Assembly: GCF_026151205.1 (NCBI RefSeq)
Contig: NC_087082.1
Span: forward strand, 13,177,865-13,241,864
Origin: Bolinopsis microptera
Taxonomy: Eukaryota > Ctenophora > Tentaculata > Lobata > Bolinopsidae
DNA: 64,000 nt
Direction of reading: 5' to 3'
The notes beneath the pieces are model-generated. The model made no database searches. It worked only from the letters and a program-made list of their open reading frames with translations, and had not been told where the DNA came from. Position numbers and translations under genes: made by a program. Below are positions 16,101 to 58,279 of this stretch, piece by piece; positions within the stretch are counted from its first letter, which is position 1, and every line of letters begins with the position of its first letter.

Positions 16101-19100
16101 CATGCTTGGTAAACGTGTGGGTCTCCTTTACACACATTGGTCACATTTATTAGAAAATAATCATCCTTGACGTAAAGGTACGAGATGTCCGAGTTAAGAC
16201 ATTTGAGTCCCCTTTGTCCGCAACTTATTTTCAAAAATCCTTTTATATTTATTATATAGCAATTGTCCCCTAAAGGTATGCTACCGCGTTCTTTGACTTT
16301 CTCGTTGATATGTCGCAAGCTGACGCAACCTGAGCAAGTTGTTTGTATTACGTGCCGGCGAAATAAAAAATGTAGTAAAAAAATCCTGTACTAGTTCAAA
16401 ATGATAAAAGTAAACAGATTTCCTTTTGTTTGGGAAAGAGAAACACTGGCAGCAGTCCACTCTACCCAATTATGGGTTTTGGTCAAATTCATTATATTTA
16501 TAGATAGATACATATTGATTTACTTCACGACAATCTGTTGCAAAACGGGGTTTCAGAAAACCCACTTCCCGATACTTCTAAAAACTTGAAACTTTTTTGC
16601 AGTCTAGACGCCCTGCAAACTTTCAAATTTCTTACTCAACAGTGGTGTGCGCCGCCGTGTTCTACCAAAATCGGCGGCGGCGTGGCCAAAATTAGCGGCG
16701 GCGGCAGCGTTCGGCGGCGTTGCCTGTGGACAATTGGCAGTTTCAGTTGTGACTCGACAAAATGGAAATTCATTGCTTAGGTAAAGGATTGACTTAGTAT
16801 TTATAAGGTTTAGACAGTTGCAAATTTCACTTCAATTCATCGTTGATCGTATGACAGGAATTCACAATTTCATGAAACATTGCATACCTTAGTTCCCAAA
16901 AATTTGTGTGCCATTATATTGAGCACAATTTATTTGAGCCCGAAAAATTTGGGCAAAAAATTTGAACTCATTTGGGCGACCGAAAATTTGGGCACAAATT
17001 CTTCGAAAAATGAACGATTTTCCACTAAAATTTCAGTTAGATATTTGCCTTAGTTCATTATATTCCTTATTATTCCAGTCATTTTGCTTTCAATTTTAAG
17101 CAGAAATAGAAAACACAAATTTCAAATATTATTTCACTTGGATATGAAGAAAAAGCCATCTTTCTATAGATTTCAGGGCCACAGGCCAAATGCCAAAAGT
17201 TTGGTTAGCAAAAAATTTAGCAGACGGAAAAGATTTATGCAATTAATTTGGTCTGCAAAAAATTTGGGCGAGAGGCCGGAGGCCCGCTCAAATTTTTTGT
17301 CGCCCAAATTTTTGGGAATTAAGGTATGCTACATCGAACTACTTGACGTCAGACATGCTAGAGGGATTTTATAATTATATCCAGCAATTATGCCTACCCC
17401 TATTAAATTTTTTTGAGTAATGTTTTGATAATTCAAATTTTAAAAATACCACGTTCACGCCGTTTGCGCCGCCGATAAATTGTTCGGCGCAGCGGCGTGG
17501 GCTAAAAAACTCGGCGGCGGCGCACACCCCTGTTACTAAATTTTAACATGATTTTTAAGGTACCTTTATTATAAATATGGCGATCTTGGGTTTCTTACCG
17601 GATTCGGACTAAACTATATCATTGGATCAATGAAAAACGAGTTAGGGGTCGTTAACATATTACGTAATTAATATTTTAGCAATTTTTACCCCCTCCCCCC
17701 TCCGTAATCAACCGTAATCAAGTTTCAAATTTCGGAGCTGAGAGTATAGAGATTATAGACACCCGCCACACATGATCTCAGCTATAATATTATGAGTATT
17801 TATGATTTAGTTTGAAGATCAAAATGCTTACCACTGCATGTAGGTACATCACAGTACTCCCATCGAGGCACAGTTCCCTCAGCATTAAAACACCAGGCGC
17901 TTGATTCACTGAGGAAAATGACGACACATGTCATATAAATGAAGAATTTCTAAAAGTTAAACAAAATTTCACAGATCATTTATATTGCAAAGCCCCTTCA
18001 TTGCAGTTTCATTGTACTTGTAGATTTTACTTAAATCTACAATAAATGTTTGTGCCCCTACCTTGTGCTCGACTTGATGACAATGATTATGGGACACTAC
18101 CAGATATCAGATATTAAAGACTTACCCGTCTGGATTTCTGCAATAGTTCTCTTGCAGTCCTGAATCAGAGTATCTGAAAATGTTTTTGTAATAAGCTATT
18201 TTCCTAAAGTAGATAGTGTTAATTGTGAATCGTAACTAACAATTTGAATTTGGCTTCTGTCGAGAGCCATTTTAGAAACATTTCGAAGTTTGGGTATAAA
18301 ATGATTTAGGACGCTCAATTTAATAGAGTACATTTTTAATCTTCCAAAATCCGAATAATCTGGATAAGAATATATCTAAATCTGGATTATGCCGTATTAT
18401 ATTGTGGCCGCCTGTGGGTGAGACTAGCTAATACCTGTTGTGCCTTAGAAGCACAAAGAAAACTTACGCCTCAGGAGTTATGCTGTGTTTATTAGGTGAT
18501 TGAGAGTCCCATCTCTGGCAGACGTGTCCTGATGCTGTGACAGATACATTTCCCCTGTAGTCTGATCCATCCACTTTATCAACACACTCTGGCCGGGCTG
18601 GAGTAAACCCATTTGTTATTCTCTTAGAACCTCGTGATTGAGCAGCATATATCACGAGTAAGGCAGGTCGACTAACGAAGTGCGCCACTAAGCCATCATA
18701 TATGATATACTAGTAGTAGTACTAGTAGAGTTTTCTGTGCCCCCGGCAGACCAAGGAGAACCTTTCCGTCGTTAACTTACGGCACAATAGTTCTCATAGT
18801 TGTCATATTTAATTCTGGACAAAAAGTTCAAAGTGGAAGAATTTTTGAAAAAAATTCAACGGACTTTAACTTGGACGGACCTTAAATGAACGCACTTTAT
18901 TTGAACGGACATTAAGATGAACATTAGGGCCTCCAGCGTTCAATTAATGTCCGTCCAAATAAGGTGCGATGAGGTATTTATTGCACACTCGTTTAGGCAA
19001 TATTAAGAAACCAAATTTTGGATCCATCAAAGTTGGAGAATTGGCTTGTGGTACCGAGAATTTACCATTTTTAAAAATACCATTTTTGACCACCTTTGCC

Positions 19101-22616: not shown

Positions 22617-23064
22617 TGTAATTATTAGTAATAGTACCGATATGAAAGACAATATTATATAATATTAATATATATGTATTAGTTATATGTTATAGTTATA
22701 GTATTAGTTATATATTATATAATTTGGTGCACCATACATTAACATATTGTGATCAACTGCAACCGTGTCGAATTTGACATTGTCATTTGAAAATTGTCCA
22801 TTGTCAATGGACTGACCCGGCATGCGCTTGGCGTTACTTCGTAGCAGGTTTGACATACGTTGCATGCCACTTTTCGCGCGAAACATGTATCAATAGCAGG
22901 TAACTTAACATAATTTCGAGAAGAAAGCGGCGCGCGCTATATCGAAGAAATTTAGACGAGCATTATCAGTAGATGTTTTCTTTTCAGAATTGTAATTATG
23001 TCGCGTACAAATGTGATCCAAAATATCGCAAAAGTTAGGTGCGTGCGGGAATTCCGGAATTTAC

Positions 23065-23141
23065 TTACTGGGCTGCGCTCAGCCTGTCATTCCGCCAAAT
23101 CTTTATGTTTATGAACATAATAGCCTGAGGTCCCCAGGTAA
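23065..23141 (+). mobile_element. 77-bp miniature TIR element, copy A
   Basis: Begins TTACTGGG and ends CCAGGTAA (inverted: TTACCTGG), bounded by a perfect 8-bp direct repeat GAATTTAC at 23057-23064 and 23142-23149. It is the most diverged of four copies in the window (others at 46652, 47359, 48501). The 8-bp duplication is typical of hAT-type transposition. No coding capacity. Confidence 0.85.
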
Positions 23142-23269
23142 GAATTTACATGTACAAATTGTACATCAATAAATAACACTGTTCGCAGAAGACTATAACT
23201 ATACCCTAGTCCCTAACTTATTATATATAATATGGTTAGGGTTTCGAATATAAATAATCATTCAGCTAT

Positions 23270-23500
23270 GACCCGCCGCGCACGAGTGCGCGGCTCCCCC
23301 TGTATTATATCGTAGTATAGAAACGACAATGGGTGATGGGGGTCACGACGTGATCATGATACAAGGTTCATCATACATGGTTAGGGTTAGGGTTGGGACT
23401 TGGGATTAGAGTTTATGTAAAACCGTATTGTTCGGCTGCAAAACCAAAAGTACCGTGATAGTTTAATTGGGCGAGCGAATTAGTAAGACGAAGAGCCATA
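23270..23500. mobile_element. Partial GGGCGAGCGA-family MITE
   Basis: Shares with 57379-57819 the module GACCCGCCGCGCACG near one end, a telomere-like GGTTAGGGTTAGGGTTGGGA tract, TTTATGTAAAACCGT and the terminal GGGCGAGCGAATTAGTAAGA. The left terminus is missing. Confidence 0.6.
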
Positions 23501-23605
23501 TATTATATAGCCCACTCCTATACAAATAGGTTTAGTCAATACACAATAGTGATACTGATCAATGGAAAATAAAATGAACAAATACTTAAAATCTCTAATT
23601 AATAA

Positions 23606-24060
23606 TTCGCTCGTCCAAAAATTATCACGTGACTTTGGTTTTTATGGTTTTGCAGCAGAACAAAACCATGAAAAAGGTTTTACATGAACCCTTATCCCAA
23701 CGACCAGATCCAACTTTATAACCCAAGCCATGACCCGGCCCGAAGCTATCCATAATGCATAACCGTAACCACAACCTGACCCTAACGGCTAACCCTAACT
23801 AACCAAAGCCAGCTAGCTAAACACTAAACAATTGAATTCGTGTTTTAGTTTTACTATATAGCCTAGCCTGTCACGTGACAAAAACAGTGTTTTGCCCATA
23901 ACTCTCCAGCGAAGCATTTTACCCTACTAAATACTACATATACGTCATTGGTCATGGGGGTGATTCAGAATCAGCGTCCAAAATATAGAATTAGATCGAA
24001 CTAGATTACTTTCATACCTTAGACTTTTTACAATAATTTTCTTAAAATTTGGGCGAGCGA
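23606..24060. mobile_element. GGGCGAGCGA-family MITE, inverted full-length copy
   Basis: Ends TTCGCTCGTCCAAAAATT and AAATTTGGGCGAGCGA are inverted repeats. The interior runs as the reverse complement of 57344-57819, including degenerate CCCTAA-like repeats (23660-23800) and the stretch over 23870-24000. About 455 bp, non-coding. Target duplication not clear. Confidence 0.7.
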
Positions 24061-25840
24061 TCAATAATGGCTTGACACACGCTGTATAACTCTTTTTGCG
24101 CGGTATACAATGTGTAGCAAACAATAGCAGGATCAAAAGCTTAAAGCCTATTCTATCTTTTTGTCGTCATGTTTTGTTTGCAGAAATTATGTTTGACAAA
24201 AGAATGTCAGGTCTATTTATAACTTTTATTGCCGCACCGCGCGGCCGGCGTGCACACAAGAGTCAAGCAACGTGTATATATAATATATATAGTATTATCT
24301 AATATAATAGTATTATCTAGCTTGCTAGTTTATTGTTCGATTCTCTCACGTGCACGGATGGCAAGAAATGAAAAGAGCGCTGCGCAGACTTGAGACTGAA
24401 TGGCGTGCCAGGCAAACTTAAAGATTAGCAAATAATGCGCCGTCCAATAATAGTAAACCTATATTTTCACGTGCCCATATCACGAGGTTTACTGCAGGTT
24501 CAATAATGATCTTTAGGCTTAGCTATATCATATATCCGACCTCATATCACCTCATATCCGACTTCACATCACGTTTGGACAAAAGGCATGTTTAACACAA
24601 AGAACTGCAGTAATTGCAGTTTGAGAAATACGCCAAACTAATTTAGGTTTCATTAATGAACAAGTGACATGGCACCCTACTGTTAGTGTTACTACTACAC
24701 ACTACAGGCTACAGGTGTGTACTGTGTAACAGAGATAACCAAAGTAACTCGACACGACTTGACTATAGTTATTTGTGATAATTATACCCGTTAATTTAGT
24801 TTAAGTTATTTTGGAGCAGTTCGGACTTCGGAGGTTATAAAATAAAACATAGGACACACTCGGTAAGATTCTGTGGATAGTATTGGACTAACGAGCTTAA
24901 AACTATTAACAATAATAAGTCAAACACTTTTTAAAGTTTAAGCAAAATATAAATATAACTTAACATTTAACACAGGTTAAATATGGGACATTGTACAATA
25001 TTACTGTTTATTTATGATGCAGTTAATAGTTAAATTAAACTCATTAAGTTTTCAGGTCATTTATAAAACCTGACACTAACTCACTGAGGGTTTAGAAGAT
25101 TTCTCGCTATATAATTCTAAATAAGAAAACATTACCAATACTCTTATCTTGACTATCTAAATCAAACGCATTTTTGGTTTTCAAGACTGGGGGAACAGTC
25201 AAGGTATGAAATGTGACAATTTTTAGGGGGCGATTTAGTTAGCGCCCTTAGCGAGATGCAGTAACACCACTGTGGTACTAATTGCAATATTTCACATTAA
25301 AACAAACTTGTATTAACTGCTTACTTAATAAAACCCACAAAAACCTTGCTGAATAATCCTGCAATATGTAACAGGGGTACTATCAAATTAACTAATTAAC
25401 TAATTAATTAAGTATGTAGTATGTACTGGTAAAATAATAACCTAGCACAAATCATAGCCTCCTCGTTTTGTAGCCTTGCAAATATAAAAGGTTTGAGCGA
25501 ACAAAGTACACAATGGCAACACATATAGCCCAACACACGTTTATAATAATACAAGTTGATAATATCGTTTTGTCTGCGAGAGGAAAGTAAGAGTGACCCC
25601 AGAATTAACGTATAGTCATGGTCTACACGCAGGATGGGGATCACAACAGAGTGCCCACTGCTCACTTATTCTGGACCCTGAAAGTTCGTGAATATTCTGG
25701 GCCACTCTAAATAAATTCAACTTCGTTACTCAAATTAGACTGGCTATCGACAGGTTAACAAATATTAAGCATATAAAATATGCTAAATATGCGGCATACA
25801 TACGGGGGAATACAAAGACACATTTATATTGTAATAGTAC
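24061..25840. other. No gene recognised
   Basis: AT-rich sequence without supportable exons or terminal-repeat elements; the open stretches are short and featureless. Confidence 0.5.
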
Positions 25841-26155
25841 GGATGGTTACTAGTTACTATAGTTACTATAGTTACTAGTTACTATATTTACTATAGTTAC
25901 TAGTTACTATAGTTACTATAGTTACTAGTTACTATAATTACTAGTTACTATAGTTACTAGTTACTATAGTTACTAGTTACTATAGTTACTAGTTACTATG
26001 GTTACTAGTTACTATGGTTACTAGTTACTTGTTACTATAGTTACTTGTTACTATAGTTACTAGTTACTATAGTTACTATAGTTACTATAGTTACTATAGT
26101 TACTATAGTTACTATAGTTACTATAGTTACTATAGTTACTAGTTACTATAGTTTC
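25841..26155. repeat. GTTACTATA/GTTACTA tandem repeat
   Basis: About 300 bp of reiterated AGTTACTATAGTTACTAGTT with variable unit length (7-16 bp). The unit is itself near-palindromic (ACTATAGT, ACTAGT), so the array can pair extensively with itself. It lies ~230 bp beyond the stop codon of the downstream CDP-DAG synthase gene. Confidence 0.9.
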
Positions 26156-26384
26156 TATTTGCTAAACTTAAACTGAGAGCAAAAACCGGGCACGTGACAG
26201 AAATTCTTCTCTTAACACGGCTTAAAACAACTACACACGTGACACAAACTGAAGTTTAAACGTGTCTCAAATTTAATTTAGATAAAGTTGCTAAGGCGTC
26301 AGTAGAGTCTACTTCTTGTAACCATGACAACACCACGGTTAAAGGAGGCCTCTTGTGGCGAGCAAGTCTCCGAGTGTCTTGTGG

Positions 26385-38143
<11,759 letters not shown>

Positions 38144-39170
38144 ATAAAGGAGCTACACACGTTTTTGTTGAAAACCAAAGCTAATCTCTCTATTCTTACT
38201 GGGTAGCAGGGCTATTCATGGACATAACATAGTTCAGTTACTTATTACAATTTAAAATATGATTGGTGCATTATTATATACATTGATGGGCATAAACAAT
38301 CCATATAATGTGTATCATCAATCAGGGTAAAATGTATTATAGTAGGCCCCATCCAGTATTATAGATGTATGGACTTACTACAGGGGTCAAAATATTCTCA
38401 AATGGATAAAAGTACCTGAATTATCCAATAATATACAATTTGTTGAGATATAAAGATTGCTATTGTTCAATGAAACAAGAAATTTAATTTTTAGCACATT
38501 TTACAGAAACAAAAAATGTATAACAATTCACCAAAAGGGCAGACAACTACCTGCAAGCATTTTAACACACAAAAACAGATGTTTGGATGCGTTGGGAGTT
38601 CGGATTTTGGGATCAACTATGGAAGATTACCCAATTTTTTGTCAAAGTAAAGCCAAAATTAAAAAGTTGTAAATTGAGCCTCACCATGATTGGTCATTGT
38701 TCATTCACAACGGAGACATTAAAGAATCACAATTTTGTAGAGTCAAAATTCGAATAATCAACTCAAAATCATTAAGGAAAACAAAATAGTACATCATTCC
38801 GCAGACTACGTATGGCATGATCATGATGGTAAACGCATCACGGCAATGGCATCTTGGCTGCAATGAGTTACGACTAGCGTTGATTGACATGCTGGTATAT
38901 CCATACAACCATGTGACCGCTTCTGAACCCAGTTAACACTTAACACTTAACAGTCAGCACTAATTGCATCCAAGATACCACGCATGTGATCAATTGTTTT
39001 ATAAATATTCCACGGACTGGGCTGGGCTTTTTACTGCCCCAAATGGAAAATTTATGAGATTTGGATCAGTCAAAAAATTGACAGACATCAGTCCAGTTAG
39101 CATCAGAATGCTAGGTGTAGAAGTTAGAGCTGCATTAGTTTTACAAAAATCGTAGTTTTATACTGGTGGT
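38144..39170. other. 5' flank of CDP-DAG synthase and LINE 5' flank
   Basis: No gene recognised. The synthase promoter should lie in the first few hundred bases (read on the minus strand), but no clear TATA or initiator stands out. Towards 39 kb the sequence may be decayed 5' LINE sequence; in-frame readthrough into the ORF1 below starts after a stop near 39155. Confidence 0.35.
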
Positions 39171-39242
39171 CTCAAATTTGGGCTGGACCCCAAAAAATCA
39201 TTTGGGCAGTGGCTCCCCGGAAAACAGTATTTTGCTCCGGTA

Positions 39243-39821
39243 GTGGGGGATATAAATCCTACAGTTTCATGTGGATACAGGAATGTTCTCTTGATGTGTG
39301 GTATAAATGATATCAGGAAACCTGAGATCAAAAATACCGCTGATATAAAGAACAATGTTTTTACACCATTTGTTCAGAAAGTAGAAATGATCCAAGCGCT
39401 TAACCCCAAAGCGAATATATTTGTGTGTCCGCTGCTGCCAACCAAACTCGTTGAGCTAAATCGGAAAGTTGTACATTATAATGGATTAATTTTTAAGGAG
39501 CTGCTTCATTCCAACTTTGGTGTGACTTTGGTACCTGGTTTTGACATGTTCTGTGATGAGGCTGGGCTCCTAAGCCAGCAATTCTCTAGGAACATTGGAC
39601 GAAACCAGAGACCGGACTATTTACACCTCAATTGGAGTGGTACAGCAAAACTGGGGGTTCTTATACGTGATACAATACTTTTAAGGATGAATGGAGGGAC
39701 TGATAGAAGGAAGAAGAGATCGGATAAAGTTGACAGTCGCTTATACTCCCAGACGATGGGTGGTTCCTCTCCTGCTGCTGCTGCGACTCAACAAGGGGAA
39801 GGTTACGTACCGTACCCATGA
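39243..39821 (+). CDS. LINE ORF1: SGNH/GDSL hydrolase-like (esterase) domain, N-terminus missing
   Basis: 192 residues. LLMCGINDIR matches SGNH block III (GxND) and RPDYLHLNWSGTAKLG carries the DxxH block V, so the C-terminal part of an SGNH hydrolase fold is clear. The block I Ser motif (GDS) should lie upstream and is not visible in frame, so the 5' part is lost or frameshifted. Esterase-type ORF1 proteins are known in CR1/L2-group LINEs. The reading frame ends in Pro/Ala/Ser-rich sequence; its TGA overlaps the ORF2 ATG. Confidence 0.75.
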   Translation: MGDINPTVSCGYRNVLLMCGINDIRKPEIKNTADIKNNVFTPFVQKVEMIQALNPKANIFVCPLLPTKLVELNRKVVHYNGLIFKELLHSNFGVTLVPGFDMFCDEAGLLSQQFSRNIGRNQRPDYLHLNWSGTAKLGVLIRDTILLRMNGGTDRRKKRSDKVDSRLYSQTMGGSSPAAAATQQGEGYVPYP

Positions 39822-42800
39822 ATAAATTAACCAAAGAGGTATGCCCTGTCTGTACAAAATTCATTTCCATTGGCCAATTCATTGCTGAATGTTGTAGGTG
39901 TGACTGTGCTATGCACCATAAATGCTATACTAAATCCAGTACAAACAAAATATATGAAGATTTTTACTGCCCTAACTGTGTACACTTAGCAAGTACTCGT
40001 TACAATCCGTTTATATATGAAGATACTGACTCTGAAAATAATAGTACTGACATTGATGAAACACTTGTAAACATCAACCGATTACTCAATAACTGTAACC
40101 CATATAGTGTTAAAGAATTTAATAAAACATTTTGCAACCAAATGAACGAGTACTCATCATTATTATTTCAAAATATCGATGGTAATAAATCTAACTTTGA
40201 TACTCTGGCAATAGAACTACAGAGATATATGAAATTTTCGATCATTGCTTTAGTAGAAACAAATGAAGGCCCCGAATTAAGTGACCTTTACCAACTGACT
40301 GGATACAATAGTTTCTACCAAAACACTTTGCAAGATAAAAGAAAAGGCACTGGAGTCGCTCTTTATGTATGTGATACCCTCAGTGCTACAGTAAATGGCA
40401 ATTTGTCCCATATATCTGAAAACCTAGAAACTCTATTTGTTACGATAAGCAGCAAGAATACTCCGGTCACTGTTGGTGTAGTTTATCGCCCTCCAAGTGG
40501 TGATGTAAATGTTGCATTATTAGAACTCTCAGCAATTCTCGATAATTTGCCGAAATGCAGTTACCTGGCAGGTGATTTCAACATTGATCTACATAATAAG
40601 GATAATGCGATTGTAAAACGTTATGAGGAAGTCCTGTTCAGTAGAGGATTTTTCCCCCTAATATCTCTGCCAACTCATGAGAAGCCAGGTTGTAAAGCAT
40701 CATGTATTGACAATATTATAACTAACGATGTAGAGAGTATAATAGCCTCAGGCACACTTACTGATCGTATATCCCACCACTCACCAGTCTTTCAAATATT
40801 TGAAAAGAGTATGGGATCCACTAAGAGTAACCTAAAATATAAACAGTATTACGACTACTGTAAGTCTAATGTTACCTCTTTTGTAAAGGACTTGGAACAT
40901 GAATTAGAGAATAAAGTAATTGACAACTTCACAGTATTTCATGATGTTTTCAAAAGTAGTATCGATAAAACGTGTAAGTTGGCAACCCCTAAGTCTTCCA
41001 AAAGAACTACACAAAATAACCCATGGATCACACCTGGTCTTATAGCCAAAATCAACCATCAGCACCAACTCTATGACAATTGGGCTAAAGTTAGAAAGAA
41101 AAAATGTAAACTTGGTGAAACTGATTATAAAGGTGGAACATGTCAATGCTTGAAATGTTGTGAAAAACGTTCTAGATACAAAACTTATAAGGATTATAGA
41201 AGGATGGTTAAAAAAGATCGCAAAGATGTTCAAACTAAGTGTTTTATGGGAAAATTTGCAGACACAAACGGTAATAGTAAGAAGACATGGGAACTGATTA
41301 ATCAAATACGAGGCAAACAGAAACGGCAAATAAAACCACTGTTTACTATAAACAATGAGAAGATAACCAATCGTAGAGTAATAGCCAATGAATTTAATAA
41401 GTATTTTGTTTCTCTAGCGTCTAATTTAAACGGGGCATATAATGAAATTGGAGAACTAACTATTAACAATCTTCCTAGTTTTTATGACTACCTGCCTAGA
41501 GCAAACACGTCCAGTATTTTCATGAATGACTGTACAGCTGACGAGGTTAGAATGATTATATCTGAACTGAAGAATGGGAAGTCATCCGACATCCCAATAC
41601 ATGTAGTTAAAGAATCGTCTAAAGTGATCTGTCCTATACTATCTTTATTATACAGTGAATGCATGAGGAATGGAGTATTCCCAGATGATTTAAAGACTGG
41701 GAGAATCAGTCCGATCTACAAGAAGGATAATGAGGAATTGCTGGAAAACTATAGGCCAGTATCAACCTTAGCTGTTTTTGGTAAGATATTTGAAAAAATT
41801 ATTTACAACAGACTGTATAGCTTCTTTCAGTCCCAGAAAATGATTTACGAGAACCAGGATACAAGGATACAAGGATACAAGGATACAAAAGTGATAATTA
41901 TTTTATTGAATTCACAATAGTTATAATTCTGAAATAATTTAAGGTTACACAATTCTAGTTATTTACAAATGTGTAGGGATAAAATAGAAATGTTTTATAA
42001 TACTATTTTTGAGGTCCTATAGCATTATGCATTGGCCAGTATTTGAGTGGAAATCTGGGCTCTTATAGTAGGCTGTAAAATTTTCGTTCACAGAGAGAAT
42101 TGAATGGATTGCTCTTGCTGTGGCAGTAAATTTTGTAGGGTCTAGTGTTTTATCGGATAGCAAACCGGCTAGGTCAGTAATATTTTTGGGATGGAAGTTA
42201 AATTTTTCTCTAACTGAGGAGTAGAGTAAACAGTCAGTTAGAACATGAATTTCGTCCTCAATAGGCTTAAGCCCCTTGCTGAAAAAGCAAAAAGTGCACC
42301 ATCGATGTTCTCTTGGTACTAGGGGGGTTTCGTAACGGCCCCTCTCAATGTAAAGATTGTGGCAGCTAATACGAAACCTTGTTAAGCTTTTCCGAGCATC
42401 GGGGATCTTAACCACTCCTAAGTATGTTTCTGGTTCAAAATCATGTTTAATTTGATTGTAGAATTCTAATTTAGGTGAGGATGCCTTGGCAGATTTCCAG
42501 GTATCCACAAATTCTTCCCTCATGTTGTGACTGATTTGGGTAGAGAGCTTGGATTTTGAAGAGGATGAGTGGGGGAAGTTATATTTGGTGAGAAGATTAG
42601 TGATGTTGGTGTACCAAGGAAGGCCCAGCATAATCTGCTCGTGAAATGCAGCGGAGAGGAGTTCATTTTCAGTGCTTTCAAGACGACTATAGAAATCTAT
42701 TGCAAGTTTGCAGGCTTCAAAGAAGAGGGGGTGGCGCCCACTTTCGCCCCAGCAGCCTATATTTGATGCTTTTGAATGGACAGACAAGGACCACTTGATA

Positions 42801-44530
42801 AACCTAAGGTGGAATCTTTCATAGTGGTCTTGTGAGATGTACCTGAGAGTATGCTGGGGGTTGGCTTTGCTATCTGTTTTGGAGAGGTATCTCATGGTTT
42901 TTGAGTGAGGACATAAGATTTGGCAGCCATAGAGCAGTATCGGTTTTATTAGAGAGTCAAATAGAATGTTTAGGGAACGGTGAGAGAGGGCATCTTTGAC
43001 GATATTGCCTTTGAGGCCATAGAGAGCACGGAGAGCCTTGGCCCTCAGTTCAGTATTTGCTGCTGTAAAAGATCCATTTCTGTGGAATATAATGCCAAGA
43101 TAGCAGTATTTTTCGGTGTGTTGGATGGGCTGGCCTCCCAAAATGAATGTTTCATAGGATTGTTTTCTTTTAGGAGGGCAGAATATGAGAACCAGTACGG
43201 ATTTAGAAAAAATCACTCCACAAGCCATGCCCTCAACTCCTCAGTGAATTACATAGAATCCTGTCTTAGCAAAAAACTGCATGTACTTGGAATATTTATT
43301 GATCTATCTAAAGCGTTTGACACGATCTCACATGAAAAACTACTTAATAAACTAGACAACTATGGAATACGTGGAAACGCCAATAGACTCATCGCTAGTT
43401 ATCTCTCTAACAGATATCAATATGTCTCTGTACTGGGCGAAGAGTCTGACAAGCTGCCTGTTCTCTTTGGAGTTCCCCAAGGCTCTTGTCTCGGACCCTT
43501 GCTATTTATAATATATGTTAACGACTTATTTAGAACAATTGATCTGGGCAAGTTCATACTATTTGCAGATGACACAAACATATTCGTAGTAGATGAATGT
43601 AGAAAAAAACTGTATGAAAGAGCAAACGAAATTCTTCGTTTGTTACACCAGTACATGAAATGCAACCTATTACATATAAATATAAAGAAATGCTGCTACA
43701 TTCACTTCAATCCGTCACGTACAGCTACTGATAATGAGGCAGATAACGAATCAGAATATATACTAACTCTGAATAATACGGTAATAAAGCGAGTTAAAGA
43801 GACCAAGTTTTTAGGTGTTATTATTGACGAAAAGCTAAAATGGGATGTTCAAATAAGAGCCCTCAACTCGAAACTTAGGTGTGAGATCGGAAGATTCAGT
43901 AGAATACGACACGTTATCCCAAAAAAACACCATAAAGAATTGTACCACACCCTATTTGAGTCACACCTAAGATTTGGAATATCGGTATGGGGTGGGTCGA
44001 GTAACAATATGCTTCAACCTATCTTCATCACTCAGAAAAAATGTATCAGAATACTATTTGGTGACCTTGAAGCATATCTAGATAAATTTAGAACATGTGC
44101 CAGAACACGTTGTATAGATGAACAAATCCTAGGAAGGGAATTCTTTGAAAAAGAGCATACAAAGCCGTGGCCGTTGTTTAACAAGAACGGCCTTCTTACC
44201 GTCCACAACCTCTACAAATACACATGTCTATTTGAACTGTTCAAAATTGTCAGATTAGAATCTCCAATCTCACTCCTATCTTTACTCCACAGATCACCAT
44301 CACAAAGACGTTCAGACCAGTTCATCACCCCGAACCCATCCTCCTCTTTCATTTATCAATCAACAAAAATGTGGAACGACTGTCGAAAAATTGACAGTTT
44401 GATAAGCTTTACTAAGTCAATGAACTTAGTTAAAGTAACACTAAAAAGTGAGCTACTCAAGATACAGTCCAGGTACGAAGAATTAGAATGGACAGAATTA
44501 AACTTCGATAAGAATGAGCTTGTATTTTAA
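39818..44530 (+). CDS. LINE ORF2: PHD finger, AP-endonuclease, reverse transcriptase (interrupted)
   Basis: Two in-frame halves, 39818-41857 (680 codons) and 43196-44530 (444 codons plus TAA), split by an inserted element between copies of GAGAACCAG. N-terminal Cys/His cluster CPVCTKF...CCRCDCAMHHKC...FYCPNCV is a PHD-like zinc finger (residues ~7-52). The endonuclease follows (QNIDGN, VETNEG, YRPPSG, YLAGDFNIDL, CIDNIITND, ISHHSPV). The RT has GRISPIYKKDN and ENYRPVS before the break, then FIDLSKAFDTISHEKL, GVPQGSCLGPLLF and ILFADDTN (catalytic FADD). The arrangement is that of CR1/Jockey-group non-LTR retrotransposons. No stop or frameshift is seen in either half, so it was probably competent shortly before being hit. 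A CATTTT-type repeat near 44606-44640 might be part of its 3' end. Confidence 0.88.
41858..43186 (-). mobile_element. 5'-truncated LINE inserted antisense into the LINE above
   Basis: 1329 bp on the minus strand flanked by a perfect 9-bp target duplication GAGAACCAG (41849-41857 and 43187-43195). It encodes the C-terminal third of a LINE ORF2 (from about 43180 to the stop at 42017): thumb/connection region GILLYGC-like motif KPILLYGCQILCPHSK, and a C-terminal zinc-binding pattern CTFCFF...HVLTDCLL. The 3' end has an AT-rich UTR and a tail of four 8-bp repeats (GATACAAG on the plus strand, 41858-41889). It belongs to a different lineage from its host element. The frame is open, so the insertion looks recent. 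Confidence 0.9.
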
Positions 44531-45740
44531 AACAGAGTCCTTTGACTTTATTATTTCGAAATTAAAGAATCGTTTGGCCATAACTCATTTCGTTCGCATT
44601 ATAAATTCACATTCACTTTCATTTTCATTTTCACTATCACACACAGTACAGGGTCATACCTCAATACCAAATTATTATAGGGCACAAGAACAAATTTGTT
44701 TACAATTATCAAAATTTGTTGAGCCCAGCAGCTTACTTCCTTTCCTCTCTTCCCCCGTCGTCTGGAGTGTGTGATTTTTGTTGATATCCGAGCTCTTATT
44801 TTTATCTTTTGGTTAACTTTCTGTGATTGGACTCGGTATTTTCGTCCCGGCCGAGTGGGACGATGCTTGCTCGCCAGTTAAGCTATACTGTAGATAACAC
44901 TAATTTCTACAAACCACAAAATATTAAATATAAAATGTGTCCAGTATGGCGCAAATGCATAATTTAATAATTTCTCGACGCCATCGTCGGGGTGAGAGTT
45001 ATCTGAACCAACTGCATGCCCCTACGATTGCGTCACCACTGGTGAGCAAGCATGTGTTTGTTGTTTAGTTGTGTTGAAAGGGAACATTACTTGATTAATT
45101 CATCCATTCGGATTTTAATAACGATGAGCTATGATATACCGTTCATCTTAGATTATTGGATCAATCTTATTATATGATTAGATTTTTAAACGAACTTGGC
45201 ACACAAAAGATTATAATGCGGAGGTTGGCTGGCTCTTCTATAATAAATACGACACTTCAATTTACAGAATGCTTGCTAGAGATAAGACAAAATATTATCA
45301 GACTATACATGCAGCATGAGTAACTGGTGGATAAGCCTTCGGTAAAAACGGATCCGGAAAAGTCAATGCGGCACTCGGGTCCTTGGTATTGTCGTCGGTA
45401 TATTGTCCATTATCTACGTTCTGCTTTTGTAGTTTAAACAATAGTGAGTTCTAAATATACAGCTTTAAACCGATTAAGTATGAATGAATGAAATACCTGA
45501 CAATCCGCACTCTTATAATCCAAAAGCATGAGTAACTCGTAGTGATGTATGATTTCTAGAAACTTTAAATTAAATTTGGCGCTCACAGGTCCTCATGAAT
45601 AAGTGATCGCCGCATAAGGTTCTGTAAATGCGCAGGGCACCTTCAAGCTTAAATTATTCACCTTACTGAGGCAGTCAACCAACGCGCGGCTTTATTTTTA
45701 TGATATGATATGTTTTGATTGTTATTAATAAATACCAAAA
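44531..45740. other. No gene recognised
   Basis: LINE 3' flank and unannotated AT-rich sequence. No exon with recognisable homology. Confidence 0.5.
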
Positions 45741-45782
45741 TTTAAATTTGTTTTCCTAAAAAAAAAATTTGTTTTCCTATTG
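45741..45782 (-). repeat. AGGAAAACAAATTT double motif (inverted copy)
   Basis: Two copies of AAATTTGTTTTCCT separated by an A-run. The reverse complement of the whole ~40-bp arrangement occurs at 55464-55505, 9.7 kb away; a variant (AGTGAAACAAATTT) occurs doubled at 47464 and 49216. Confidence 0.7.
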
Positions 45783-46651
45783 TTTGAATTGTTGAATGGA
45801 AATTTGGGTATTCCACTTATCATGGACTGGTTATATGAACATGATGATAAGACATGTTTATGTTCAAGTTTTGTAAATAACATGACTGAAATTAAAATTG
45901 TCTGAATGAGAGCTACCCCAGTCTTGAAATTCAGGCTGGCATGTATCTGGTGAAAAAAAAAACTTTCTGATCTCATTCAGTTCACCATTTATCAACTGTT
46001 CTAGGTTCATTTGTGATGGTTGTACCAATGACTCATGGTCTAACAGTCGGAGAAAATTCAGTGATACAATGTTTCCAATGATTGTATAGTAGGAACATTC
46101 AGTATTTTAACAAATCCCAGTCCATGTGCTTCGGTGCCACACATTCGAAACGAGATTCAAGAGTCTAGATGCTAAGGTACAGCAGTAATTATTAAGTTGA
46201 AGCTGTTAAATCCTCTAGTCTCACCAATCATTGACAAAGTATAAATGAATAAATAATAAAAAACAAACGACAAGAGCAAAAAGGGTTTAAAATATTAAAT
46301 TACAATGTTAATATTAATTAAATCAAAATTAATCGTTTAAAAAGCAAACGATAATAAAATAGATTACAGTAGAGTCCAGCTATAATATATAATGAACAAA
46401 AAAAATTCAAAATTCAAACTGTTTGAATTCAGTTTGTTAACCTAAACATTTCTTTTAAAAGAAAATTTAATTTTTAAGTTTGGTTAATTTAATAGCTGCG
46501 CGCATAATTTTAATTATTTCCAATTCCAGTTGCAGTACAAGAATGATTTTTTAAGTGCTTATAATAAACATTTTGGGCGTATGAGCCCAACATTTCATTT
46601 TCAATTTTTGCACATTTGTATCAATTTTATTACTGTTTCGTATAATATAAT

Positions 46652-46728
46652 TTACTGGGCCGCGCTCAGCCTGTCATTCCGCCTAATCTCTATGTTTACC
46701 AACATTAAAGCCTGGGGTTCTCAGGTAA
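46652..46728 (+). mobile_element. 77-bp miniature TIR element, copy B
   Basis: TTACTGGGCC...CTCAGGTAA with 8-bp direct repeats AATATAAT at 46644-46651 and 46729-46736. The flanks are AT-simple, so this duplication alone would be weak, but the coordinates agree exactly with the other copies. Confidence 0.85.
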
Positions 46729-46746
46729 AATATAATATAATATAAG

Positions 46747-47000
46747 TTTTTGATTGACGATAACAACCCATTGACATGGTTTCTATGCATATGCAAAACA
46801 AAGCAACGATCTGCGATGCAGAGCAAAAATAATAATAAATAAAATAAAAATTAAGATAGTTCTTGGAGGACTTCGCCGCTTCGACGCGCCGCGCGAACTA
46901 GCATTCTTGCTTCGCATCGAAGCAACGATCGCGTCGACGATCGTTGCTCTGCTTCGCAGAGCAACGATCTCGACGGATTGACATCGTCAATCAAGATAGT
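46747..47000. mobile_element. Candidate MITE with GC-rich hairpins
   Basis: TTGATTGACGAT at about 46751 and ATCGTCAATCAA at about 46985 are inverted ends. Inside are two consecutive perfect hairpins: AGCAACGATCG/CGATCGTTGCT (46919-46948) and GATCGTTGCTCTGC/GCAGAGCAACGATC with a TTC loop (46938-46970). No ORF. Confidence 0.5.
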
Positions 47001-47280
47001 TCTTGATACATGTTTCGTATCCAAATATTAGAGAATATCGGCGGCGCGCGCTTCGCACGCGAAAAGTGGCATGCAACGTATGTCAAGATAGTTCAATGAA
47101 ACGAAAATAGTTATCCATTATCATTCCTCAAATCAACCATCGATTCAAAAATGAATAAATTCATTTGCAGACATTTTTATAAATTTTATCCAATTATAAA
47201 AATTTATTGTATCACGTGGTGACCCCCACTGTCGCTTCACTATGCTGCATTATAGTCGCTTCACTACCCTTGTAGAGTTT

Positions 47281-47335
47281 TAACGATACAGGGGGAGCCG
47301 CGCACTCGCGCGCGGCGGGTCATACAACGTATGGC
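47281..47335 (-). repeat. CATACGTTGTATGACCCGCC module (inverted copy)
   Basis: ACAGGGGGAGCCGCGCAC followed by GCGGGTCATACAACGTATG. Same module, other orientation, occurs at 56778-56826, 57379-57412 and (part) 23275-23312. Confidence 0.7.
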
Positions 47336-47358
47336 AAGAAATTTACATTTGTCTAAAC

Positions 47359-47448
47359 TTTACCTGAGGACCCCAGGCTTTAATGTTGGTAAACAACATT
47401 AACCGAATGGAGATTAGGCGAAATGACAGGCTGAGCGCGGCCCAGTAA
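47359..47448 (-). mobile_element. Miniature TIR element, copy C (90 bp, inverted)
   Basis: TTTACCTGAGGACC...GCCCAGTAA with perfect 8-bp direct repeats GTCTAAAC at 47351-47358 and 47449-47456. It carries a ~13-bp internal insertion relative to copies A and B. Confidence 0.88.
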
Positions 47449-48127
47449 GTCTAAACTATATAATAGTGAAACAAATTTTTAGTGAAACAAATTTAAAATT
47501 ATACAAAACAAAAAGTTAAATATAATCATAATTAATGTTCATTGTTCATATTTTGCGCGGCTCAGTTTGCGGGACTTCCATTGTATAAGTACCCAGGAAA
47601 CCTAACCGTTAGGGGCCTAACTTCGTAAGTAAAAAAGATAGCGACTTCCGGTTTTTTGCAAAATGTTCGTCTTGTAAAAATAACGTTACCTCCCCAGGAG
47701 GAAAATTGGGGCTTCTCATTTTAAAAAGTTATTACAGAAAAACTGTTTTTGATGCTGCGCGCAACAAGCTAGAAAAATAACTTTGCAAAATAAACCCGTT
47801 GTTATGCGTGTGACGTCATCATGCATGACCATATTTGGAAATGCGCGTGAAGATAAGAGTACGTATTTTGCCGATCGCCTGCAGCACTTATTACGAAGTA
47901 GTTTCCAAAACTGTTATAGTCTTTTCTGTCCATTTTGTTGCTTTGGGATAATCAAGTGGATCACTGGATCCCATTAATTTTAATTGAAGTGAACACTGTT
48001 TTGAACAAAATTGAAAGCGTCTTTCGATTAAACAAATGTACAATGATTTCACATCTGAATGAGTAACTATCCAGCTGCTCAGTAGTTCTTATCTTATGTG
48101 CTGAAAGTTCATACTACACTCGATGAA

Positions 48128-48171
48128 TATTTTTATGGTGCACCCCCTATAGGGGGTGCACCATAAAAATA
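48128..48171. repeat. 44-bp perfect palindrome
   Basis: TTTTTATGGTGCACCCCCTA followed immediately by its exact reverse complement, with no spacer (centre between 48149 and 48150). Could form a cruciform or, if transcribed, a 22-bp hairpin stem. Confidence 0.9.
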
Positions 48172-48500
48172 AACTTGCTCGGATTTTAAAAATTTTTGTA
48201 CCATAGTTTTCTAGAGACTGTGAGAATTTTAACAATACCAAATTTGTCATACCTTTTTGGAAAGATCAGTGAGTTTCGCCTAGGTGCCATATTTGATGGT
48301 GCGCGGCTTTTGGAGCAAAATTAGCTGTAAAAGTCGCGTAATTTGACCAAATTTGACCAAATTCGTTGATTTTTGTTGTATTATTTAAAAATATCTTCAC
48401 ACTTCAGTTCCTTGAATGAGATCATTCTGAAAATTGGCGACGACCTTCTAATAGGGCTTTCACAACTGTCCGAAAAATTTGGTGGATATCGGAGTTGATG

Positions 48501-48583
48501 TTACTGGGCCGCGCTCAGCCTGTCATTCCGCCTAATCTCTATTCTGTTGTTTACCAACATTAAAGCCTGGGGTCCTCAGGTAA
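48501..48583 (+). mobile_element. Miniature TIR element, copy D (83 bp)
   Basis: TTACTGGGCCGCGCTC...GTCCTCAGGTAA with perfect 8-bp direct repeats AGTTGATG at 48493-48500 and 48584-48591. Nearly identical to copy B apart from a 6-bp insertion (CTGTTG). Confidence 0.9.
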
Positions 48584-48879
48584 AGTTGATGTAGTGATCA
48601 AAATGGGGCAAAATACGCTGCTTTTAGCTGCAACATAATGTCTGATGGTTGGATATGCTTTAAACTTTTCGGACACTTTCCTTGTAAGTCTATGAGTAAG
48701 CTTACCGCAATTTTTGTTGCAATCGGAGGTCGGGAAGGATACTTAATATTTATTTGTTTGAAGAAAATTGTGCTGGCCGAAATTAGCGCTAAAAAACCAT
48801 CCTACAGTCGGTACGCGCGGCTCACTGTCGATGGCGCACTACCTAGTAGTTAGTTAGTAGTAGTTAGTAGGTGACGGGA

Positions 48880-50803: not shown

Positions 50804-53735
50804 TCAAAACTTGAGCTTATTCGTGGCAAAATTAAGCTCACACCAATCAAGTGTATCATGCTTGAATTGCAATTCTTGTAAAGCAATTTTCAATGTATTC
50901 TTAAACCCGTTTGTCGGAGTATTAAAACTTATCTTACTTGATGTTTGTCGACAGCTGTTCCACATGTAGGATGATTGGTAGATGAATTGTGAGGATGGTT
51001 GTGATGTGATGAAATAATCCTCTCGTCGTGGTGACCTGTTAAATGATGAGTACAGTGATAATGGTTCCTCTAACTTATTAATTTTGAATAGTTCTAAGAG
51101 ACAAGTGTACTTATACAGGTTGTGAACAGTTAACAATTTCTGATTCTTAAACAAGGGCTTAGAGTGTTCTTTTTTGTAAAAGTCCACACCTAGTCTTTGC
51201 TCACCAAATGGTCGTGTCCGGGCACAAGTTCTAAATTTTTCTAAGTAAGCTTCTTTATCCCCAAATAGAATTCTTATACACTTTTTCTGTGTTTTAAAGA
51301 GAGGTTCGAGTCGGTTGTTGCTAATACCACCCCATACAGATATTCCAAATCCCAAATGTGATTCGAATAAAGTATGGTATAAATCCTTATAATACTGTTT
51401 AGGGACAATGTGTCGTATTCTGCATAACTTACCTACTTCACATTTAAGTTTTGAGTTAAGTGACCGTGTGTGAGTTTTCCAATTAAGTTGATCATCGATA
51501 ATGACACCTAGAAATTTAGCTTCTTGGACTTTTTTAATGACAACATTGTTCAAAGTTAATATGTTCTCGTCATTTTCTACTTCCTCTTTGGCACGTGACG
51601 GTCTAAAGTGGATAAAACAGCATTTCTTAATGTTAATATGTAATAAGTTTAGTTTCATATACTTATAAACAGATGCTAAAACTTCATTTCCCTTTTCGTA
51701 CAGTCTTCTGACACATGTTTCTTCAATAAATATGTTAGTGTCATCGGCAAATAGTATAAACGTTCCTATAATTGATGAGTTTCGGATGTCATTTATGTAG
51801 ATGATAAACAGCAGGGGACCTAAACAGGACCCTTGGGGCACTCCGTAAACAACGGGCAGTTTCTCAGAGTCTTCACCTAATACTGAGACATACTGGTATC
51901 TATTCGACAGGTAACTTGCTATAAGGTTGTTTGCATTTCCACGGATCCCATAATTTTCTAACTTATGCAGTAACTTTTCATGTGAGATTGTATCAAAAGC
52001 TTTGCTAAGATCAATAAATATTCCAAGTACGTGTTGTTTTTTCTTGAGACGTGATTCTATGTGGTTAACTGAGTAATTTAAAGCATAACTAGTCGAATGA
52101 TTTTTACGGAATCCGTACTGGTTTTCATACAAGGAATTCTGTGAATGAAAGAAGCTATATAATCTGTTGAATATAATTTTTTCAAATATTTTACCAAATA
52201 CTACAAGTGTCGACACAGGTCTATAATTTTCAAGGAGTTCCTGGTTATCTTTCTTGTAAATTGGACTAATCCTTCCAATCTTAAGGTCATCAGGGAATAT
52301 GCCATCTTTCATACATTCATTGTACAGTACAGTAAGTAGAGGAGTGACTATTTTTGAGGACTGTTTTACAACATGAATAGGAATATCACTTGCCTTACCG
52401 TTCTTAAGTTCAGATATGATTTTGCTAACCTCGTCTGTTGTGCAGTCATGCATGTAAATGCTGGAGGTGTTTGAGAGCGGTAAATAGTCATAGAAACTAG
52501 GTAGATTGTTTATGTTCATTTGACCAAGTTCATTGTAAGCAGTATTTAGGTCAGAGGCCAATGATACGAAATACTTATTGAATTCGTTTGCTATGATCCT
52601 CCTGTTCGTTATCTTAACGTTGTCTATGGTGAACAGCGGCTTTATTTCACGCCGCCGTTTTCCTCTTATACTATTAATTAGTTCCCAGGTCTTTTTACTA
52701 TTCCCGCTATTTTCTGCAAATTTACCAGAGAAGTAATCTGTTTTCACTGTTTGACGTGTTTTCTTTAGGACTTTTCTGTATTCTTTGTAGATAAGGTAGC
52801 GACTACGTTTTAGTGAGCATTCAGGGCACTGGCAAATCCCGCCCTTGTTATCAGTTTCCCCGAGTTTACATTTTCTATTTCTTATCTCAACCCAATTTTC
52901 GTACAGTTTATGCTGATTATTAATTGAGCAAATGAGACCGGGAGTTATCCAAGGGTTAACCTTAACAGTTCTCTTAGAGGTTTTCGGGGTTTCTAGTTTA
53001 AACGATTTTTCGATGCAGTTTTTGTAAGTGTCATGGAATTCAGTAAAGTTATGGATTATTTTAGTTTTAAGCTCATCTTCAAGATCCACTAGGAAGCCGT
53101 TAACATTTGATTGACAGAAATCATAATACTGTTTAATAGAAGTTTTTCCAGAGTTGACTTCAACATTCCAGTTAAATATGTTAAAAATAGGCGAGTGGTG
53201 AGTTATTCGTTCTTTTAGGGTGCCTGAAGTAATAACATTCTCAATGTCGTTGGTAAATATGTTGTCTATGCAAGATGCTTTACAGCCTGGTTTTTCGTGA
53301 GTAGCAATAGATATTAACGGACAAAATCCTTTACTGAACAATATTTCTTCATATTTTTGTACATTTTTGTTATCTTTATCATGAAGATCGATATTAAAGT
53401 CTCCAGCTAGATAACTAAACTTCGGCATGTGATCAAGAAGGTTAGAAAGTTCAACTAGAGCTTGGGAAATACAGCCACTTGGTGGACGATACAAAACACC
53501 TACATTAACAGGTTGATCTTCGTTACTTAATGATAAGACAAGTATTTCTAGATTTTCTGTGACTTGTGATATATTTTCAATTACTGTAGCATTTAATCTA
53601 TCGTCAACATAAAGGGCTACTCCAGTGCCCTTTTGTTTGTTAGGTGCTGTGTCCTGATAGTAACTATTATAACCGTCGAGCTGAAATAGGTTGCTTAATT
53701 CTTTCTTTATTTGTAAAGAATCAAAGTTGCCATGC
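50804..53735 (-). mobile_element. 5'-truncated CR1/Jockey-type LINE with open ORF2
   Basis: Minus-strand frame open from about 53730 to the stop at 50804-50806, roughly 975 codons. The start was placed upstream of the first TTG/ATG because the endonuclease homology continues (GTGVALYVDDRL) to GNFDSLQIKKELSNLF, where it breaks off. Endonuclease motifs YRPPSG, YLAGDFNIDL, CIDNIFTND, ITHHSPIF; RT motifs GRISPIYKKDN, FIDLSKAFDTISHEKLL, GVPQGSCLGPLLF and ILFADDTN are intact. The C-terminal region matches that of the LINE at 39.8-44.5 kb residue for residue over long stretches (SVWGG, KKCIRILFG, TVHNLYKYTCL), so the two are sister subfamilies. It lacks the PHD finger and ORF1. No stops were seen inside, so it is young. 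Confidence 0.9.
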
Positions 53736-53744
53736 CGCTCGCCC

Positions 53745-54125
53745 GAGCGTTTGGAGTTTTAGGAGCCAGTCCAGACACTTGCCTGGATTGCATCGCAATA
53801 GCTCCGTATCGACTCCTTACGCCCGAGTAAGTTGTTATATCCTATATACTCTGTAAGTTTCACGTTAGCGTCTGAGGTACCAGTCCAGACTATGTGTCTG
53901 GTTCGCATCGCGAAGGTCCTATAGTGACGCTTTGTGCTTAACTCAAGAGATGTGATTACAATGAGATTTAATTTTATTGTATGACTGTAACTTGGATATG
54001 GGTGATCAGGATTAGAAAATGTATCGTTTGCAGTACCGAGAGGTTGGAACTAAGGGAGCCAGCCTGGACTCTTGCCCAGATTGCATCGCAATAGCCCCTT
54101 GTCGACCCTCGCTCTCGTTCCTGGT
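53745..54125. repeat. Three related ~75-bp GC-richer modules
   Basis: Modules at 53755-53830, 53872-53940 and 54046-54118 share the order CCAGYCYRGACT, then TGGATTGCATCGCAATAGC (or GGTTCGCATCGCGAAGG), then CGAC/GACGC. Each contains the imperfect inverted repeat GCATCGCAA-type core. Spacing is about 115 and 175 bp. Nature unknown; the first directly abuts the LINE 5' breakpoint. Confidence 0.55.
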
Positions 54126-56769: not shown

Positions 56770-57000
56770 TTTTTGTTGTCATACGTTGTATGACCCGCCG
56801 CGCGCACGAAGTGCGCGGCTTCCCCTGTATCGTCAGGACAATAAAGTGAAACGACCGTGGGGTTGCAACGTGATACAATGTTTTTGACTTTTCATGTCTG
56901 CATTGCATTGTTGTGCAGTGCATTTTATAAATATAAATAATGTATAATTTTTTATTACATTAAAATTGACACTAATCAAAACATAATAATACATGAAATA
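56770..57000. repeat. CATACGTTGTATGACCCGCC module and flank
   Basis: GTCATACGTTGTATGACCC at 56778 opens with a perfect palindrome (CATACGTTGTATG is near-palindromic) followed by CGCGCACGAAGTGCGCG, another palindrome, then sequence shared with the MITE at 57379. Probably a fragment of the GGGCGAGCGA family. Confidence 0.6.
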
Positions 57001-57011
57001 ATTTTAATTAG

Positions 57012-58279
57012 TACAGGGTGGGCCAAATGTAAATACCCATACGTTGGCCTTAACAGCTCCGCTGTGTTTTGTATTTGAGAGCTGTTGCTTTGCAAATGGT
57101 ATACTGTACTTATTACTGGTTCGAGGATTCCGTCGTCAAAATTTGAAAATTCGAATATTTTAGACCACGCCCATTCAATATTAAAACACCTATATTATTT
57201 TCTCTGAACATGCTGAACGCCTAATTTTTTCAGAGACGGTAAATTATCAAATGTTGCTGATCTGAAAACATGAGGCAAAACGGATTAGAAATGACGAAGC
57301 ATTTTCTGTATCTCGTTAACAAAATTGACTGGGTGATTATGTGCGCTCCTACTAAATCGCTCGCCCAAATTTTTTGTCATACGTTGTATGACCCGCCGCG
57401 CACGAAGTGCGCGGACGATAGTGAAACGACCGTGGGGGTCGCAACGTGATACAACAAATTTTAAGAAAATTCTTGTGAAAAGGCCCTTTCGGTATGAAAT
57501 TAGTCTCGATCAGTTAAGTGTATTTTTGGACGCTGATTCCGAATCACCCCCCATGACGTATAGTATAGGGTAAAAATGCTTCCCTGGAGAGTTATGGGCA
57601 AAAAACCATTTTGGTCACGTGACAGGCTAGTAAAACATGAATTCGATTGTTTAGGGCTCGGGTTAGGGTAACGGTTGTGGTAAGGGTTATGGATAGCTTC
57701 GGGGTTATGGTTAGGGTTAGGGTTGGGATTAGGGTTTATGTAAAACCGTTTTGTACAGCTGCAATACCATAAAAACCAAAGTCATGTGAAATTTTTGGGC
57801 GAGCGAATTAGTAAGAGCCGATTATGTGACACCGTGACACGACACCTTAATTGGGCACCCTTAACAATTCCCATAATGTTTAACGGGGTAGTTAACGGGG
57901 TCACCTTATCACGTGATTAGGTAAACCACTCACCTGATCACACGTAATGAATAAACTCGTCATGCTTCATATTTTGGTCATCTGAGAAGCTGCAGTTTTA
58001 ATTCTTTCAGGACAAACGTAATTCCAATGGCCATTGGCCAAACACTATTCAATAATATTTATTAGCTTGATCCGACTATCCAAACTATCAAACAAATGTG
58101 AAAATGAACCTCCATTTTAAAAAAATGAACGCGAATATTTTTCGAGTTGACAAATTCCTCGAACCAGTGGTGGTACTAAGTCATACCATGGTATACCAGA
58201 AGGAAGTATTTAAATTGGGCACTCAGTGAATGAGCTATAAAGGCCAACGTATGGGTACTGACTTTTGGCCCACCCTGTA
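57012..58279 (+). mobile_element. CAGGGTGGGCC TIR element, full length with a nested MITE
   Basis: Begins TACAGGGTGGGCCAAA and ends with the inverted TTTGGCCCACCCTGTA. About 785 bp without the nested insertion (57344-57819 plus one 9-bp duplicate). It aligns end to end, in inverse orientation, with 60215-60985. No transposase ORF; non-autonomous. Borders are compatible with a TA target site but the family is not assigned. Confidence 0.85.
57344..57819 (+). mobile_element. GGGCGAGCGA-family MITE nested in the element above
   Basis: 476 bp with inverted ends CGCTCCTACTAAATCGCTCG and, inverted, GGCTCTTACTAATTCGCTCG, flanked by a perfect 9-bp duplication GATTATGTG (57335-57343, 57820-57828). The interior holds the GACCCGCCGCGCACG module and a degenerate TTAGGG-like tract (57655-57745). 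A 9-bp duplication suggests a Mutator-like (MULE) mobiliser; this is inference. Confidence 0.88.

Follow-up and report, generated by a model that had tools for sequence, protein, structure and literature searches.

A ctenophore miniature transposon family with nearly invariant ends and a central junction that varies in most copies

Introduction

Miniature inverted-repeat transposable elements (MITEs) are defined by a target duplication, inverted ends, short length and high copy number, as in Made1, a human MITE of ~80 bp that is non-coding and present in high copy number. Target duplications are strictly 8 bp for hAT elements and ~8-11 bp for Mutator-like elements (MULEs). Gap-repair deletions with filler DNA, as in Ds or P elements, are a known source of non-autonomous elements, and V(D)J joining, which is tied to DDE recombination, combines fixed flanks with trimmed or filled variable junctions. 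Here we describe a MITE family of the ctenophore Bolinopsis microptera, family 1, of which four copies lie in a 64,000-nt stretch of contig NC_087082.1 (positions 13,177,865 to 13,241,864; the whole stretch is referred to as the window). The ends of family 1 are nearly invariant, and the junction at its centre is variable in most, but not all, copies.

Made1 resembles family 1 in its size, its non-coding character and its high copy number and differs in superfamily and target; we know of no junction particular to each copy in Made1. V(D)J joining also connects fixed flanks through trimmed, filled and variable junctions, whereas the junction of family 1 lies inside a mobile element, and the analogy is one of product, not of descent. 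Deletion derivatives of the Ds or P type share repair scars with filler DNA, but those scars mark excision sites or deletion points that vary, whereas the junction of most inserted family 1 copies lies at a single narrow point in the centre. Filler DNA is likewise described at transposon excision sites of rice (PMC4423477). For Muta1 of Aedes aegypti, the accessible part of the report (PMC5225508) describes target duplications of 8 or 9 bp (21 events of 8 bp and 39 of 9 bp in yeast), no apparent sequence preference and many non-autonomous derivatives, all of which are similar to family 1. However, the family 1 ends TTAC...GTAA are not linked to any MULE transposase and family 1 has no long terminal repeats, and the Muta1 derivatives are described in that part as having truncated repeats, not a new junction per copy. 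We recognised no report of a new central junction in each copy of a MITE in the literature searched, a partial coverage that proves no absence.

Family 1 is a numerous and mobile miniature element

The assembly comprises 264,652,675 bases in 232 contigs, and the window is part of contig C11. Using the 32-bp left end of family 1 as a query, we found 4083 places at ≤3 mismatches in the 264.65-Mb genome, and the reversed control gave 0. Across all searches of this analysis, matches lie almost all on contigs C1-C13, with a few on the small contigs C18, C27, C32, C103 and C186. After removal of overlapping duplicates, 119 complete copies were parsed from the fetched loci, with the exclusion of 7 left ends for which the distance limit was reached without a right end and of 1 that was too close to an edge; the left end is near-perfect in these copies by design of the search, and the right end was only required to have ≤3 mismatches. 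Dropping a paralogue and a copy whose left end was poor gave the 117-copy set, which keeps both L096 and L098, two forms of one insertion. A set of 94 copies was chosen on contig C1 by an exact left end in map order, regardless of core.

The four copies in the window are real and lie where the original prediction placed them, with the start of the minus-strand copy moved to 47360, so that it runs TTAC...GTAA like the others. An exact 8-bp repeat had been assigned to each; three copies have one, but the duplication of the third is 9 bp and not an 8-bp repeat followed by an additional T (Table 1). In the copies read, target duplications proved general and the unit is not part of one longer repeat, so that neither observation named in the prediction as counting against it was made. 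Flanks agree at ≤1 mismatch in 102 of the 119 parsed copies and in 0 of 1000 draws of random flank pairs; together with the reversed left-end control, this excludes chance. Of the 117 copies, 61 carry an exact duplication of 8 bp and 22 an exact one of 9 bp. The repeats of 19 more differ by one mismatch, and the remaining 15 show no repeat that close; shuffling of the flank partners produced one near match in 20 rounds. The duplicated targets are without strong sequence preference.

One family 1 insertion, at GCTTGCAG, lies inside a multi-copy host repeat. At 15 empty places of this repeat, the query pieces that flank the element meet with a 9-base overlap and no element between them, and the two that were read each hold a single GCTTGCAG, which demonstrates that family 1 is mobile. 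The mobility and miniature size that had been predicted thus agree with both target duplications and empty sites. A related repeat holds another family 1 copy, L050, which lies in opposite orientation and whose duplication is the reverse complement of GCTTGCAG.

With its target duplication, short and imperfect inverted ends (TTACTGGG / TTACCTGRGG), short length and high copy number, family 1 is a miniature non-autonomous cut-and-paste transposon, i.e., a MITE, and its length falls far below what a transposase gene would need. Very short copies exist, namely L160 (29 bp, with an exact 8-bp duplication), the paralogues L075 and L076 (36 bp) and L074 (57 bp), and their flanking duplications of 8 or 9 bp are intact. 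A screen of 360 kb of sequence for more families bounded by exact 8-bp repeats listed only family 1. By its sequence, the right end CAGGTAA resembles a splice donor.

The central junction differs between most copies

Each family 1 element has two halves, ~42-46 bp on the left and ~30-40 bp on the right, which meet at a short AT-rich junction; both conserved halves are presumably transposase-binding ends. We defined the core as what remains of an element once 32 bp are removed on the left and 18 bp on the right. Its length ranges from 7 to 118 nt, the longest holding a nested copy, and it usually starts with [ATG]AATCT[CTA]TAT and mostly ends in (GTT)WATGAACATRATAG or GTTTACCAACATTAAAG, which forms one arm of a small hairpin. 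The interior had been described as unusually GC-rich and conserved. The four window copies do have 47-49% GC vs 38% for the window, but only the ends are GC-rich and the middle is AT-rich, and conservation did not hold up, as the middle is the variable part and differs between most copies. Single-strand folding of four copies yielded z-scores of -2.12, -0.65, -0.73 and -2.24, with no consistent excess.

The 117 copies contain 103 distinct cores. When equal-length cores within 3 substitutions were pooled into merged types, 73 types remained, of which 65 occur in one copy each; the largest, a simple form with a 27-nt core, accounts for 26 of the 117 copies, a share inflated by the loci fetched for that form. 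On C1, 87 distinct cores were found and 82 of the 94 copies have a core of their own, with 65 merged types, 58 of them single and the largest with 14 copies. The class with left half AAATCTTTAT is the cleanest set; all 33 of its cores are distinct (26 merged types, 22 single), and the right 18-bp ends of this class match one of three variant ends, defined after looking, in 32 of 33 copies and with a single mismatch in the other. Within the window, the copies at 46652, 47360 and 48501 have half types in common and differ mainly in core and filler. The complete left half, ...TATTCGG, occurs exactly at 519 places, and no base is shared after TATTCGG in the sample.

The types of the two halves are linked across the junction, with a mutual information of 0.924 against a maximum of 0.411 in 2000 permutations (n=87), which indicates that both halves of a copy come from the same lineage. 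Departures from the element inside the exact left end were found at 1 and 4 places with two patterns and just before the right end at 2 places, which are paralogues of one 36-bp copy; these patterns see about one third and about one tenth of the possible departures, so that the actual counts are a few-fold larger. The breakpoints of family 1 are narrow.

In the 54 copies without parsed filler, the halves overlap by 0-5 nt. Where filler is present, its 5-mers are found directly in the element's own halves in 131 of 575 cases vs 44.8 in shuffles, a figure inflated by single substitutions that were parsed as filler, and inverted in 115 of 575 vs 38.2. Without the nested element in L048, these values are 119 of 499 vs ~39 and 50 of 499 vs ~32, respectively. 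Two examples are the right arm duplicated in L104 and, in L120, part of the left end in inverted orientation. The fillers look like the products of templated end joining.

A centre that was simply mutable would be expected to drift in passively multiplied copies too. Copies of the host repeat that multiplied an existing insertion passively mostly keep one core. Ten filled places, including that of the query itself, are exactly 291 bp long with 98-100% identity, and L096, L098, L142, L146, L149 and L150 have an identical 24-nt core, though several have indels or duplications in their flanks. Because such passively multiplied copies show little or no junction change, the junction seems to be re-made around transposition. 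This control is good, not final.

Search for a transposase and for long source elements

The original prediction pointed to an autonomous hAT-like partner with the same ends, which our data do not bear out. The 22 exact 9-bp duplications beside 61 exact 8-bp ones (n=117) depart from a strict 8-bp length, and this mixture argues against hAT. The genome has at least 150 hAT domain matches, and paired family 1 ends were absent from the 20 hAT loci read, in which only 6 isolated 10-mers resembled family 1 ends at one mismatch, none of them paired. In 13 of the 20 loci, a scan that sought 8-bp repeats only showed pairs of ends of a different kind, resembling CAGGGGTCGACCGA or TAGAGSCGTGAGC; L012-L017, L019, L020, L022 and L025 have the ends CAGGGGTCGACCGA/CAAGGGTCGACCGA ~0.9-1.5 kb apart with exact 8-bp duplications. 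Duplications of 8 or 9 bp fall within the MULE range, and the genome contains 88 MULE-domain matches. Our best guess for the superfamily is Mutator-like.

No long element with family 1 ends was present among the places read, a search that may have overlooked as much as a few percent of long forms. Of the 99 exact left ends on C1, four lacked a parsed right end: L106 has a nested insertion, L125 and L130 have an imperfect right end, and L089 alone has no right end within 9.8 kb. Facing left ends that lie close together on C1 were considered as long elements and turned out to be separate or nested copies. Patterns that force a departure after the end, two of which matched 95 and 26 further places with 6 and 4 of them read, gave small variants, short relics, copies of another repeat, a copy interrupted by a LINE (L138) and a truncated copy without a right end (L137). 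Another repeat, in L151-L153 and L155, has the same 14-mer, TTACTGGGCCGCGC, after GCGATGCG.

A second family has variable cores

A second miniature family, TTGTATCACG...GTATGACAA, has a length of 74-224 bp and three copies in the window (Table 1). Exact 8-bp duplications, in the best of three registers, flank 14 of 22 copies. All 17 readable cores differ, two pairs of them by only one or two substitutions. Because this family varies likewise, the cause of the variable cores may lie in host repair or in a shared type of transposase and not in one sequence.

Table 1. Copies of the two miniature families in the window, with the cores of the family 1 copies
Feature	Length	Position	Strand	Flanks and remarks
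Family 1 copy 1	77 bp	23065..23141	+	8-bp duplication GAATTTAC at 23057-23064 and 23142-23149
Core of copy 1		23097..23123	+	Element positions 33-59, holds the variable junction; derived from core definition
Family 1 copy 2	77 bp	46652..46728	+	8-bp duplication AATATAAT at 46644-46651 and 46729-46736
Core of copy 2		46684..46710	+	Derived from core definition
Family 1 copy 3	89 bp	47360..47448	-	9-bp duplication GTCTAAACT at 47351-47359 and 47449-47457
Core of copy 3		47378..47416	-	Derived from core definition
Family 1 copy 4	83 bp	48501..48583	+	8-bp duplication AGTTGATG at 48493-48500 and 48584-48591
Core of copy 4		48533..48565	+	Derived from core definition
Second-family copy (TTGTATCACG...GTATGRCAA)	131 bp	47207..47337	+	Flanks agree with 1 mismatch; variable core
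Second-family copy	103 bp	56776..56878	-	Exact duplication; from minus-strand position 7123
Second-family copy	81 bp	57374..57454	-	Exact duplication; core unreadable between the landmarks used; from minus-strand position 6547

How the junction may arise

We give roughly an even chance to a model in which family 1 is a MITE that is mobilised in trans and whose junction is often made anew around transposition by a break and rejoining. A DDE-type transposase would act in trans and cut with a stagger of 8 or 9 bp. A single transposase complex would hold both ends of a molecule too short to bend easily, and the unprotected middle of this molecule would break or be cut while the transposase-bound ends are spared. 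Both bound halves would then integrate with the usual target duplication, and host end joining, perhaps of a polymerase-theta-like kind, would seal the middle and copy nearby sequence as filler. We favour this model because it explains the varied junctions, the narrow breakpoints, the linked halves, the copied fillers and the small size together. A stronger form, which is possible though doubtful, is a cycle of split transposition, in which the ends would be carried as separate or separable half-molecules, each jump would re-create the middle by end joining, and most copies in at least two miniature families would thereby have a heritable, barcode-like junction of their own.

The variable junction could instead stem from collapse of a central hairpin. 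A few source copies with a perfect hairpin, such as GGCTATTATGTT-TATG-AACATAATAGCC in L036, would move, and each new copy would lose part of the left arm at or soon after insertion and then be stable. Consistent with this proposal, the right half usually has one hairpin arm and the variation falls on the other; L036, L037 and L042 resemble incomplete versions of a single perfect hairpin; the second family has a similar layout around GACGATACAGG; and passive copies are mostly stable. However, L036, the only copy seen with the full 12-bp stem, is without a target duplication, a GC-rich hairpin elsewhere in the second family is mostly intact and several cores are longer than the presumed ancestor, and we regard hairpin collapse as unlikely.

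The common end point of the complete left halves, with no shared base beyond it, would also be expected if copies were independent internal deletions of a longer source, made by interrupted gap repair and each keeping ~42 bp on the left and ~30 bp on the right, a process with filler that is known to yield non-autonomous elements. This origin appears improbable, since no long form occurs among the 99 exact left ends of C1 and the breakpoints look too narrow for random repair tracts. We assign a similarly low probability to ordinary drift, by which ends under selection would persist while a neutral centre gathers indels over a long history of many active lineages. Recognition would be needed for the ends only, and some cores do differ merely by slippage of ATT or TA or by substitutions. 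Yet the 26 merged types of the AAATCTTTAT class stand beside 594 right-end bases with one mismatch, the left and right half types have remained linked, indels and copied fillers account for many of the differences, and the core is mostly kept in passive copies.

Several observations count against a junction re-made by breakage and rejoining. Change at the junction is not obligatory, as 20 of 117 copies, in 6 classes, have the same core as other copies at different sites or as paralogues. On C1, 14 of 94 copies have the simple 27-nt core or a substitution variant of it, beside the inflated share of this form in the 117-copy set. No target duplication within one mismatch flanks 12 of the 94 C1 copies, and the short relics L160, L075/L076 and L074 indicate breaks that are not strictly central. 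The 11 filler-free copies of one class overlap by a mean of 1.2 nt vs 0.85 for random breakpoints, and a microhomology preference was not shown; inverted templating is modest, and the direct 5-mer figure carries the inflation given above. Among the passive copies, most are young (96-100% identical), and the more diverged L143, L144 and L145 have scattered one-base changes in the core as elsewhere. No transposase was identified, nor any autonomous partner among the places read. No transposition event was seen, and the break, its timing, the repair enzymes and the type of transposase are what we infer.

If the junction is indeed re-made around each jump, the copies would record transposition events one by one and would be a naturally occurring example of junctional diversity of the V(D)J kind from an ordinary transposon. 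Such copies would also hint at the way in which elements whose length approaches or falls below the bending length of DNA are able to move, and they would provide a read-out of end-joining repair in a possibly early-branching animal.

Other features of the window

Rfam gave no match in the window. LINE-like frames lie at 39734-44530 and 50804-53758, with reverse transcriptase domains on the plus strand (42974-44527) and on the minus strand, and 39734-41917 has a weak endonuclease match below the cut-off. A long open frame at 13124-16390 contains an LDL-receptor class A repeat and a rhodopsin-type receptor domain. Near-perfect long arrays consist of GAG x199 (11285-11881) and AC x334 (34167-34835), and a 342-bp unit occurs twice at 99% within 59776-60456.

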